A DNA stretch of 64,000 bases from Candidatus Bipolaricaulota bacterium (lineage in GTDB: Bacteria > Bipolaricaulota > Bipolaricaulia > UBA7950 > UBA9294). Position numbers and translations under genes: made by a program. The notes beneath the pieces are model-generated. The model ran no database searches. It was not told the DNA's origin and saw only the letters and a program-made list of their open reading frames with translations. Shown here in pieces: positions 9,888 through 14,504 of the stretch. The stretch covers positions 1 to 64,000 of the forward strand of contig JANQGM010000033.1 of NCBI GenBank assembly GCA_028277345.1, in the 5' to 3' direction. Position 1 is the first letter of the stretch. Each line of letters opens with the position of its first letter.

Positions 9888-11243
9888 CTATCCCTCTTTC
9901 TGAAGGACAAAATCGATCCATTCATGAGCGGTAACTCCTAACTCTTCGCCTCGCTGAATGAGGTTCGTGTGGCTGGATGTCCAGGATCCAATGAGTCCGC
10001 CCTGTTGGTTGTAAATGAGCGTGTACCAAAGGCAGGCCGCCAGCCATTCCTTGACCGGGGTATGTTCCTCGCCCAAACAGGCGTACACCCGCACGATGCT
10101 GTTTCGTGGGTCGAACCCAAGATCGATGTGCCCGAGATCCAGGAGAAGGAACTGCAGGGGCACACGCAGCAACCACTTGTCCAGTCCGAGTGCATAGCCA
10201 AACAACAACTGACCCAACCGTTTCTTTTCACTGTGCGTATTGCGTGTCGGAATCTCCAATCGCCCGGTTCCAATACCGTGAATCCAGCTTTCGATGTAGC
10301 GAAAGGTGTTGTGATGACAGTCGGAGGCTGTATGAATTCCCGATGCGATATGGCAGCAGGTCTTGTACAGTTCCTGCTTCCCCTCATCCTCAACCAACTC
10401 GTCAAGCGCCTCACGATAGGCGGTTGGATCCCAGGGTCTGAGGGTCGGCAACTCCGCGAGTTCGGAGATTTCTGCATCGAGACGTGGACCGCGCCCATTC
10501 TTGCCGTAGAACACGTCCTGCCCCATGGCCTCCAAGTCCTGGTTTGTGGAGGCCTCCAATAGCGATTGCGGATCCGTTCCCGTGTATCCGAACTCGGTGA
10601 AGACGCTGAGGTTCAGAAGCACACGATCCAGCATCTTCCTCTGGAGTGTGTTCAAATCCGCAACTGCGCCGAGCCATTCGTAGGTTCGAACAACAAATCC
10701 CGCTGCCTTAGGGTACGCCTTTAGCACGCCTTTGCTTGGTTCCCCGGAAAGATACGCGTTGATCACAGCATGAATCGTTCGCAAGCTCTCCAGTTGCCCC
10801 GGCTGGCTGGTTTTGGGCTGGATTCCGAGTCCCGAGCACAGACATCCGTTCTTGAATGAGGAGGACTCCAGGCCTCCCCGGGCAATGGCAAACAGAAGCT
10901 CGTCGATGGTCGCCGGAAGACCACTATCACAGGGGACCAATCCGGAAATGTGACAGCGAAGCAGACGGATGCCATCGGACAGCGGTCCCAACTCAGCCTG
11001 CATGACGTTCAGATGCACAACGGTATCGTCCCATGCATCTTCGTTCCATCGCCCTTCCTCATCCGGAAAGGTCCAAGGAATCATGGACCATTGGCTAATG
11101 AGGTTGCCGTCCTCATCCGAGTAGAGCGTGCTCACCATCTCGCTCTCCCGGACGGTTTTCGAAGAGGTTTCGCCGGTATACACGGCCTCATAGCCCGGTG
11201 ACACCTGATCGTAGGGAATCAACTCGTCTTTTTTCTTTGCCAT
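9888..11243 (-). CDS. hypothetical protein
   Basis: ATG at 11243 (MAKKKDELIPYDQ) with upstream GGGAG; long uninterrupted ORF; no family recognised. Confidence 0.55.
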   Translation of the reverse strand: MAKKKDELIPYDQVSPGYEAVYTGETSSKTVRESEMVSTLYSDEDGNLISQWSMIPWTFPDEEGRWNEDAWDDTVVHLNVMQAELGPLSDGIRLLRCHISGLVPCDSGLPATIDELLFAIARGGLESSSFKNGCLCSGLGIQPKTSQPGQLESLRTIHAVINAYLSGEPSKGVLKAYPKAAGFVVRTYEWLGAVADLNTLQRKMLDRVLLNLSVFTEFGYTGTDPQSLLEASTNQDLEAMGQDVFYGKNGRGPRLDAEISELAELPTLRPWDPTAYREALDELVEDEGKQELYKTCCHIASGIHTASDCHHNTFRYIESWIHGIGTGRLEIPTRNTHSEKKRLGQLLFGYALGLDKWLLRVPLQFLLLDLGHIDLGFDPRNSIVRVYACLGEEHTPVKEWLAACLWYTLIYNQQGGLIGSWTSSHTNLIQRGEELGVTAHEWIDFVLQKEG

Positions 11244-11765
11244 GATCGCTCCCTTCACAGATCCTACCCAGATCAACCCACAGTGTGAATCGGCTCTCGT
11301 TTCCATGATCAGCGCTCGCAAAATCGTCTGCCCGCGATGGATCAACCGCTTGATATACGGAATGCTCAAGCCTTTTTAGCTTTCGCCAAGATGTGCAGCC
11401 CTATTGACACGAAGCCAGGCTTGAATCAATTGCGCAAAACACCATCACACTCAACAGACATTCTGAGCTTCAGCCATCAAGTTTCGTCCACTTCGCACGT
11501 TGTGCGGATCTCCGGATTTGCAGATCTGTTTCATTTAAATTAGGAATTGGAGATATATTACTGTAAGATTGGAGTAGTTGTCGCTAGCGACGTGGTGATT
11601 TCATGTAGTCATCTTCAGGTACGCAGACGCAAACCTGCTGCCCATTCATTTCGCCGGACGTGTCTGCGCAGACGGGTGTTGAACTGACCTCATCGACAGT
11701 GGAATGTCCTGCATGGGTTGGTGAAGACTGTCCGTCACGGTTCTAAACTCCACAAGGAGGACATC

Positions 11766-12848
11766 ATGGCAGATACCGGTAATTCGACACAACGAATGCC
11801 ACGAGGGGCAATTCCATCGCCTCGTTGGGCGCTTGCAGCAGCAAACCCACACGTTCCAGATCCAAGCATATCGCTACCGCAAAGCTATCTGGCGTGGCCC
11901 ACCAAGCTGTCATATTGGGGCAACAACAAGCATGATGATTGCGTTTCCGCTGAGGAAGCTTTCGCGAAGATTACTGCGCTCCCGTATATCTATATTTCTG
12001 AATCGACCCTGATTGGCTGGGCAAGCCAACACGGGTATCTGGAGGGAGCCTCTATTTACGGTGTTTTGAAGACGATGCATGATGAAGGCCTCGCCATCAC
12101 AGGAGGCACTGTCTTTGACGGACCGTTTCGCACGGTCAATTGGACTGATGCGTCGACCTTGCAAAGCGCCATCTTCAGTCATGGCCCCGTGAAGATCGGC
12201 ATTGGGGCGGACGACCTCCAAGACCATACGCACGGTCATGTCAAGTCTGGGAAGAACGGGTGGGCATTGTATGGCTACCCGTCAGGTCTCGAAGAAGATC
12301 ACTGTGTGAGCTTATGCGGCTACGGGAATCTTGCGGACTTGGAGAAGTTATTCAAGGATCAGGGGGTCAAGGTCAGCGTCCCCAAGGGAATGCCTACTGG
12401 CATGTGCTATGCTATGTTCACCTGGAAATCGATTGGGATCATCGACGAACAGTCGATGCTCAATATGACCTATGAGGCATGGGTTCGAAATCCGGTGACA
12501 ATCCTCTCAGAGCTACCCACGGTCAGTAAACTCAAGCTCAAAAACGATGGCGGCTTTGTGGTGGACATTCATGCGCTCTATCGGGGCCCTGGAATCCCTC
12601 ACTATTCGGACAAAGCGAATCATCACAATTTCCCGATCGCCCAGACGAGGACGATGAACCTCTCCGAGAAATGCGAAGACCCTGCTATTCAGACTGGCGA
12701 CATCGTGCAGATGAAGGTCTGGGTCGAAGCCGGACATGACAACACGTACAGCGGCCTTTTCCGCTATGATCCCAAAGGACCGGCGCAATCCTTCAAGATT
12801 TCGGGATCCACGCTCAACAACTCTCTGGAATACCTGGGGCCGGCATAG
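11766..12848 (+). CDS. papain-like (C1-type) cysteine peptidase-like protein with Pro-rich N-terminal motif
   Basis: AAGGAGG then ATG at 11766; 'NNKHDDCVSAEEAFAKI' (Cys) and 'EDHCVSLCGYG' (His) resemble papain-fold active-site blocks. Confidence 0.5.
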   Translation: MADTGNSTQRMPRGAIPSPRWALAAANPHVPDPSISLPQSYLAWPTKLSYWGNNKHDDCVSAEEAFAKITALPYIYISESTLIGWASQHGYLEGASIYGVLKTMHDEGLAITGGTVFDGPFRTVNWTDASTLQSAIFSHGPVKIGIGADDLQDHTHGHVKSGKNGWALYGYPSGLEEDHCVSLCGYGNLADLEKLFKDQGVKVSVPKGMPTGMCYAMFTWKSIGIIDEQSMLNMTYEAWVRNPVTILSELPTVSKLKLKNDGGFVVDIHALYRGPGIPHYSDKANHHNFPIAQTRTMNLSEKCEDPAIQTGDIVQMKVWVEAGHDNTYSGLFRYDPKGPAQSFKISGSTLNNSLEYLGPA

Positions 12849-12892
12849 GGCGAGTGACTCCGACTATCTGAGCCAGATCTTTGGGTAGGAGA

Positions 12893-13693
12893 ATGAACGA
12901 GAAGATGCCGCGCGGCGCAATACCGACACCTCGGAGCGTGCTGGCAGCCTCAGAGCCCTATCATATCGGGCTCAGCAACGAGAAGTACGCGCCGAGCGGC
13001 CATTTTCCTTCGCCCAATCATGAACTGGCATCAGCGCGCCCCTTTCGAGCCAGTGGCCCAACTCCCGAATCATGGACGGCCTGGCCCATTCGCATCGGGA
13101 CCTGGAAGAGCAAAACGCTGGCGACCTCGAACTGGGCAGAGGAGGCCTTTGCCAAGGCCTGCGCAGAACCTAGGATTTTCATCCCGCCCGAGGTCGTCGA
13201 AGCCACCGCTCGGGCGTGTGGTTCTTCGAACTTCTCCGCGTTCATGCAGCAGCATGGTTTCAGGATAGGCGCCAAGGCGTATCTGAGCGGACCCTATTTC
13301 TCGATCGACTGGACAAACGCGAAGACCTTGAACAGCGCGATCGCGACGGTTGGCCCAGTCAAGATCGTAGGGGCCTGTCGTGAATTCACGCAGGCGTATG
13401 CCCTCAAGTCCTCGCTCAAGCTCAGCGAGGGATCTGAACTCAACTCCACGCATGCCCCGCTATCAAGAATCTGCGCTAGTGTGTTTGGCTATGGCCCAAC
13501 ATCGATGCTGCTTGAATCATTCAACCGGCATGGAATGAGAGTTGATTTCTCACCTCGGACATCCGACAAGGCAGGCTACGTCATCTTCGTTGGGGGAACT
13601 ATCGGCCTAGTCGATAGAAACTGGCTGTTGAGCAGCACAAGCGAGGCATGGGTTCGAGATCCAATCACGATCATTGAGGCGGCAGGCGAATAG
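12893..13693 (+). CDS. paralogue of the preceding protein, apparent pseudoenzyme
   Basis: Shares MPRGAIPTPRSVLAAS, EEAFAKACAEPRIFI, SIDWTNAKTLNSAI..GPVKI, FGYG, SSTSEAWVRDPITI with 11766-12848, but SNWAEEAFAK replaces DDCVSAEEAFAK. Confidence 0.6.
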   Translation: MNEKMPRGAIPTPRSVLAASEPYHIGLSNEKYAPSGHFPSPNHELASARPFRASGPTPESWTAWPIRIGTWKSKTLATSNWAEEAFAKACAEPRIFIPPEVVEATARACGSSNFSAFMQQHGFRIGAKAYLSGPYFSIDWTNAKTLNSAIATVGPVKIVGACREFTQAYALKSSLKLSEGSELNSTHAPLSRICASVFGYGPTSMLLESFNRHGMRVDFSPRTSDKAGYVIFVGGTIGLVDRNWLLSSTSEAWVRDPITIIEAAGE

Positions 13694-13783: not shown

Positions 13784-13975
13784 TTACGGAATTCTCCTCA
13801 CTCGCCCGACTTCGCCGGTTTCCAGGCGAACCTTGATCCCATGCGGATGACTGGCCGAGTTCGTCAGAATGTCTTTCACGACCCCGCGGGTGAGCTGTCC
13901 GCATCGCTGGTGGTGCTTCTGGACGATCTCAACTTCTAAGCCGGGCTTGATCGCGCTTCGTTTTGTGCCTTCCAT
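13784..13975 (-). CDS. YwbE family protein
   Basis: MEGTKRSAIKPGLEVEIVQKHHQRCGQLTRGVVKDILTNSASHPHGIKVRLETGEVGRVRRIP matches the YwbE (DUF2196) pattern. Confidence 0.85.
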   Translation of the reverse strand: MEGTKRSAIKPGLEVEIVQKHHQRCGQLTRGVVKDILTNSASHPHGIKVRLETGEVGRVRRIP

Positions 13976-13985
13976 TGGAGTCCTC

Positions 13986-14504
13986 TCAGTCCTGTTTCGT
14001 TGTGAAGAAGGCATCGTGAAGCGACACCGTCCCACAAGGCAACTCTCCCGCAAAAGAGAGCGCGAAGAACGCCTCCCTCGGCACATCTTCAACACTGAGT
14101 CCATCGACGTGCTCGAACCCGAATCGTCCGTAGTACTCAGGATGTCCGACCACACAGCATCCGGACGCCTTCATGGCTTTCAGGCGCGACAGCCCTTCGC
14201 GAATCAGAGCTGACCCCACACCCTGCCGATGATGCTCCGGCGACACGGACACGGGACCGAGGCCGAACCAGTTCGCCGTTCCATCCGATAAGCTCACCGG
14301 AGAAAAGGCAACGTGTCCGATCAGGCGCCCATCCAGCTCTGCGACCAACGACAGCGTCAGCGCTCCGGCTTCGCGCAACCCAAGAATCATGAGGTGCTCA
14401 GTATCATCGCTGATCTCCAACGTACGAAAGGCAGCCGCCGTCACCTCGGTGATCGCATCGATATCTGCGCTTGTCTCTTCTCGAATAAGGATGTTTGGAT
14501 TCAT
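13986..14504 (-). CDS. GNAT family N-acetyltransferase (YhbS-like)
   Basis: 'LGPVSVSPEHHRQGVGSALIREGL...VVGHPEYYGRFGFE'. Confidence 0.85.
   Translation of the reverse strand: MNPNILIREETSADIDAITEVTAAAFRTLEISDDTEHLMILGLREAGALTLSLVAELDGRLIGHVAFSPVSLSDGTANWFGLGPVSVSPEHHRQGVGSALIREGLSRLKAMKASGCCVVGHPEYYGRFGFEHVDGLSVEDVPREAFFALSFAGELPCGTVSLHDAFFTTKQD

Follow-up and report, generated by a model that had tools for sequence, protein, structure and literature searches.

A predicted papain-fold cysteine peptidase and its active-site-altered paralogue encoded side by side in a bacterial genome

Regulation by pseudoproteases is familiar mainly from eukaryotes, for example from Plasmodium SERA5. This papain-like protein carries Ser in place of the catalytic Cys and has a non-enzymatic regulatory role, while the cutting is done by an active cysteine-type SERA relative (PMC4671257, PMC5500368, PMC8167364). 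Short papain-like peptidases of the C1A group are also known in tailed phages (PMC10380794), and in Thermoanaerobacterium phage THSA-485A the gene annotated as papain directly adjoins one for a glycoside hydrolase 25. A short C1 peptidase gene may also stand next to an inhibitor gene: on the Priestia megaterium plasmid NZ_CP085450.1, such a peptidase gene (L079:271-1317) directly precedes an annotated I42 (chagasin-type) inhibitor gene.

Here we describe two adjacent genes for papain-like proteins in a 64-kb stretch of bacterial DNA (the window, meaning the whole stretch analysed), taken from a 90%-complete assembly of 40 contigs. The gene for protein 1 (P0001, 360 aa) lies on the plus strand at 11766..12848, with an alternative start at 11796, and encodes a papain-fold protein with Cys and His intact. 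The gene for protein 2 (P0002, 266 aa) follows on the same strand at 12893..13693 and encodes a putative papain-fold pseudoenzyme. Both open reading frames, as well as the motif strings, the Cys and His blocks and the altered blocks quoted in the original prediction for this DNA, were found exactly as given there.

An AAGGAGG ribosome-binding site is located directly 5' of the P0001 start, and 44 bp separate the two co-directional genes. Because the neighbours on both sides (9888-11369 and 13784-14155) run on the opposite strand, we regard P0001 and P0002 as an isolated two-gene transcription unit. The adjoining, divergently oriented gene (9888-11369, minus strand) encodes a protein of 472-493 aa that matches nothing in Pfam and for which 32 other genomes of its family yielded no orthologue. 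In a search of congeners for an empty site, the flanking genes 9891-11306 and 13989-14504 proved to have no orthologues in the genus. The GC3 of both genes is within or slightly under the range of the other window genes (0.66 for P0002, which is host-like), and thus does not suggest contamination.

Homology between the two proteins extends over about 240 residues (tblastn E 2.4e-27), and both belong to one unnamed family of papain-fold proteins of about 230 residues. When GTDB contigs were scanned with a single sequence, one relative was found, in Pseudovibrio, while a three-row alignment retrieved 23 IMG/VR contigs and a 22-row alignment retrieved 43. The family comprises members on these 43 contigs (39 distinct proteins) and in the one Pseudovibrio genome, giving a deduplicated set of 42 full-length members with both window proteins counted. 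For P0001 and P0002, neither Pfam nor NCBIfam gave any match at thresholds as loose as E 10. Across the family, PF00112 (Peptidase C1) matched 4 of 22 members with a best E of 0.0086, which does not reach the Pfam cut-off.

Among bacteria, the family is rare within the set that we searched. The other 99 of 100 genomes of the window's phylum hold no further copy, tblastn against plasmid and phage records gave no relative, and around 400 Pseudomonadota genomes plus around 385 genomes of the same class yielded only the Pseudovibrio protein and one remnant. As this bacterial census is a sample, 'rare' and 'unique pair' are valid for the searched set only. The remnant, a decayed member with a 69-codon frame (L007:1501-1710, genome G132), joins the N-terminal arm LPRGAIPSPRWALAAARPF directly to the C-terminal tail EAWVRDPTTIV, and its whole catalytic middle is missing.

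The family is carried mostly on tailed-phage contigs, where phage status is the assignment of the IMG/VR collection together with the families of the neighbouring genes. The 92 ORFs neighbouring the phage-contig members include endolysin, tape-measure, tail, tail-spike and structural families; most are unknown, and many have no PHROG match. On one contig (L033), a 224-residue ORF comes directly after the family gene, and an endolysin gene comes next. It could be argued from such neighbours, and from the phage-contig location of the relatives, that the pair is itself part of a prophage or of a phage-derived lysis or tail module. We consider this highly improbable: the remaining genes of the 64-kb window resemble ordinary chromosomal ones, and none around the pair is recognisable as a phage gene. 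A prophage at the locus was rejected on the same account. An anti-phage defence system was likewise rejected, as no PADLOC defence model matched P0001, P0002, their divergent neighbour, the Pseudovibrio relative or the gene next to that relative.

Many of the phage members have a Pro-rich linker and further domains. For example, one protein (L031:2678-4369, the same as L008) is fused to several GRLEIFARGGDGAVWHMWQTAPNNGWSGW-type repeats, for which Pfam gives FG-GAP_3 only and which we take to resemble PLL-type lectin repeats. Another (L068:7911-9656) holds two protease folds within one protein: a trypsin-like domain (PF13365, E 3.4e-9) is fused to the papain-like domain, with a Pro-rich linker and a hydrophobic stretch between them. 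A third phage member (L067) carries a PKD-like domain.

The nearest relative is the Pseudovibrio protein, at about 50% identity, and in the tree P0001 groups with it (support 99/87). This distant nearest relative, together with the absence of the family from the other genomes of the phylum, points to a horizontal origin. A transfer from phage to host would be the probable direction. P0002 is unplaced in the tree, as its branch of 2.68 changes per column is too long.

The papain-like assignment of the original prediction was borne out by structure prediction. In the single-chain AlphaFold2 models, residues ~12-248 of P0001 are mostly at pLDDT 73-98, with a core around 90, and P0002 reaches an overall pLDDT of 77.8. 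A Foldseek search with the P0001 model returned Cwp84, cathepsins, Der f 1 and falcipain at probability 1.00, with 101 PDB matches at E <= 0.001, and the P0002 model matched procathepsin K (5e-4) and procathepsin L. Similarly, a 34-row family profile found ficin, cathepsin and actinidin chains in the PDB at 7e-5 and weaker; against cathepsins and ficin, the Asp-His of the family is aligned with their catalytic His. These models and profile matches support a predicted C1 papain fold for both proteins.

Beyond this domain, P0001 has an orphan C-terminal extension (12513..12848, plus strand, residues 250-360), for which beta strands are predicted at low confidence (pLDDT <50). These 110 residues have no match in Pfam, the PDB, viral contigs, 399 Pseudomonadota genomes or the window's own phylum, and they are unrelated to the protein neighbouring the Pseudovibrio relative. 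A suspected likeness to the tails of thiol-activated cytolysins obtained no support.

Next to the domain, at the N-terminal end, lies the Pro-rich motif that the original prediction had noticed in both proteins, with a further related unit in protein 2. All of these are present as quoted: PRGAIPSPRWALAAANPH in P0001 (11799..11852, plus strand, residues 12-29), an extra upstream copy in P0002, MPRGAIPTPRSVLAASEPYH (copy 1; 12905..12964, plus strand, residues 5-24, predicted disordered), and a degenerate domain-proximal copy, PSGHFPSPNHELASARPF (copy 2; 12992..13045, plus strand, residues 34-51, mostly ordered), which lies 40 residues before Ser79. Copy 1 resembles the family motif better than copy 2. 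The P-x-G-A-x-P-S-P-R motif recurs, with variation, in nearly all members, so that its predicted presence in homologues holds across almost the whole family; G14 is found in 40 of 41 members, P19 in 38, and P17 and R20 in 35 each. Given the homology of P0001 and P0002 and this recurrence in about 40 further distinct homologues, the shared motif is not due to chance. Comparing the P0001 motif with copy 1, 13 of 20 residues are common, encoded by the same codon at 4 and by different codons at 9 of these 13 positions. This result suggests selection at the protein level and not a recent copy of the DNA.

What is the motif for? Found near the N-terminus, common to both proteins and doubled in P0002, it had been proposed to act as a targeting or docking signal or as a cleavable leader. 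This idea did not survive the family-wide comparison, and we now consider it very unlikely. The distance from motif to Cys is 39-45 residues in 33 of 34 aligned members, most often 40, which is also the spacing of the domain-proximal copy of P0002. The motif falls in the ordered part of the AlphaFold2 models. As originally noted, no signal peptide is evident: neither protein has a hydrophobic N-terminal stretch, the best 12-residue hydropathy being 0.66 (P0001) and 0.76 (P0002) compared to 2.4-3.0 in two phage members that have one. In L067 and L068, the motif stands behind a hydrophobic signal-like stretch and is still attached to the domain.

The motif also has a counterpart outside the family. 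Aligned with hhalign to nine short bacterial and phage C1A peptidases, the family gives a moderate match (E 3.5e-5 for one pair, probability 71.7) that starts at the motif (RGAIPSPRW against GFIPSPEDKRD), pairs Cys59 with the C1A Cys and ends by residue 148. The best PDB match of the C1A set is the xylellain chain 3ois, which includes the arm segment from residue 29. Like the short C1A group, the family has a P-S-P-x-D-x-R-D-like segment some 40 residues ahead of the Cys, and no Pfam (I29) prodomain is seen in P0001 or P0002. Being ordered, fixed in spacing, attached to the domain and aligned with this segment, the motif is, as judged from these alignments, an N-terminal arm of the domain and not a special leader, equivalent to the G-x-I-P-S-P-x-D-x-R-D segment of short C1A peptidases.

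The arm could instead be a short built-in propeptide that covers the cleft until it is removed, in which case the extra copy of P0002 would inhibit protein 1 in trans. It sits where short C1A peptidases have their N-terminal segment (present in 3ois from residue 29), which in xylellain presumably covers the cleft, and procathepsins are among the top Foldseek matches of both models. A dead enzyme, however, would have no cleft to protect, yet P0002 keeps its own domain-proximal copy, and we find this possibility unlikely.

We then compared the active sites of the two proteins. Six residues (Asn53, Cys59, Asp178, His179, Thr219 and Trp220) are invariant in 41 of 41 distinct members, P0002 excepted. 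In P0001 the predicted nucleophile Cys59 (11940..11942, plus strand) is at the start of helix 59-71, and Asp178 and His179 (His179 at 12300..12302, plus strand) are the first residues of strand 178-188. Having the Cys at a helix start and the His at a strand start applies to P0001 and not to P0002.

Two further positions depart from the papain pattern. Asn53 (11922..11924, plus strand), six residues before the Cys, takes the place of the papain oxyanion Gln19 and is matched in the profile alignment to the Gln that is invariant in short C1A peptidases. The oxyanion Gln itself is absent, with Asn in 41 of 41 members and Ser in P0002. Likewise, the N-S-W-G motif of the catalytic Asn is absent from the family; there is instead the invariant pair Thr219-Trp220 (12420..12425, plus strand; 41 of 41 each), near the place of papain Asn175 and followed by x-S/T. 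No counterpart of papain Asn175, the third catalytic residue, is identifiable, the second half of the domain being aligned too poorly to C1A. Nonetheless, the missing Asn-Ser-Trp does not exclude activity, since dyad-only and variant third residues occur in the superfamily (PMC10318531).

In P0002, the catalytic Cys position is occupied by Ser79 (13127..13129, plus strand), the Asn position is also Ser, and an ungapped alignment of the strand puts Ile193 (13469..13471, plus strand) where the catalytic His would be. Taken in order, the six invariant positions read Ser, Ser, Thr, a displaced His, Val and Gly. This His, residue 187, is the nearest in P0002; it is not part of the His-bearing strand but precedes it by 6 residues, in a loop (170-188) that is predicted to be disordered. 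The earlier statement that protein 2 has its Cys and His blocks replaced is therefore right in substance and can be refined to Ser79 and a nearest His that precedes the strand. While a Cys to Ser change alone may leave some activity (PMC10318531), P0002 appears to have lost the whole active-site set save the displaced His, with the fold residues mostly kept. At the level of sequence, the proposed pairing of an active with a pseudo form is thus upheld, the active-site set being intact in P0001 and altered in P0002. Among the 42 distinct members, P0002 is the sole active-site-altered case. A six-frame HMM search found exactly one member per phage locus and two in the window alone, and the relatives show no tandem or pseudo copies: the one copy at every phage locus has kept its active site intact.

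The main rival to a functional pair is relaxation of the duplicate, by which P0002 would be under relaxed selection and on its way to loss, with no role, and the pair would not be functional as a pair. The very long branch of P0002 agrees with this, and so does its presence in one genome only, where it may be drifting; a family gene is also decaying in another bacterium, as the L007 remnant indicates. Set against these points, the 266-codon frame is intact with its host-like GC3, and the motif of copy 1 is preserved despite synonymous change. Furthermore, P0002 retains 36 of the 57 columns that 85% or more of the family conserve, and its losses are not random but clustered at the active site: the chance of losing the five clear ones is ~0.005, or ~0.002 if the His is counted as lost. 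On balance, relaxation is a real possibility that we nevertheless find somewhat doubtful.

We consider it most likely that a phage-lineage peptidase was acquired horizontally and that its dead paralogue serves as a non-catalytic partner. More specifically, we tentatively favour, at slightly less than even confidence, a horizontally acquired, divergent short C1A-like ('xylellain-type') cysteine peptidase with a catalytically dead paralogue kept as its non-catalytic partner. The gene would have entered the lineage horizontally from a phage-associated pool. Protein 1 would cleave peptide or isopeptide bonds in the cytoplasm by means of Cys59 and His179. Protein 2 would have been retained as a partner without catalytic activity, binding either protein 1 or the substrate of protein 1, and it may hold protein 1 in check or guide it. 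Its flexible extra arm copy may pack against protein 1 in trans.

Such a partnership between protein 1 and protein 2 is what we infer from their sequences, by which an enzyme-plus-regulator module is plausible. A stronger proposal seems to us improbable: a bacterial protease-pseudoprotease operon captured from phage genes, with the inactive paralogue controlling the active one by supplying the extra arm copy in trans. Of the suggestion that the locus is an undescribed system, one part holds, as no second such pair turned up in the searched set, but there is no sign of a system apart from the two genes themselves.

Compared with the known short C1A peptidases (xylellain 3ois, bacterial 'C1 family peptidase' proteins and the papain-like gene of phage THSA-485A), the window family has the same papain fold, a G-x-I-P-S-P-type segment about 40 residues before the Cys, the Cys at a helix start and the His at a strand start, and no long I29-type prodomain. 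In contrast to them, it has an invariant Asn for the oxyanion Gln and an invariant Thr-Trp with no N-S-W-G, and the window proteins lack a Pfam match even at E 10. The 39 distinct phage-contig members represent an unnamed, phage-carried branch of the papain fold with an altered and strictly conserved active site, in which Asn stands for the oxyanion Gln and Thr-Trp replaces Asn-Ser-Trp.

The window adds to this branch one clean tandem case, in which the gene of an intact member adjoins that of a member whose active site has been lost. As in SERA5, a Cys to Ser member occurs beside an active relative in a papain-like family, and by this analogy P0001 and P0002 may be partners; in P0002, however, the loss extends to the His, Asn, Asp, Thr and Trp positions, and the two cases share neither recent common ancestry nor location. 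The C1/I42 arrangement of Priestia megaterium is similar in that a short C1 peptidase gene is directly followed by the gene of a putative regulator, but the partner there belongs to an unrelated inhibitor family, whereas in the window it is a putatively dead paralogue. If the two window proteins do not interact, they represent an ordinary duplicated gene; if they do, they would provide a compact prokaryotic model of pseudoprotease regulation.
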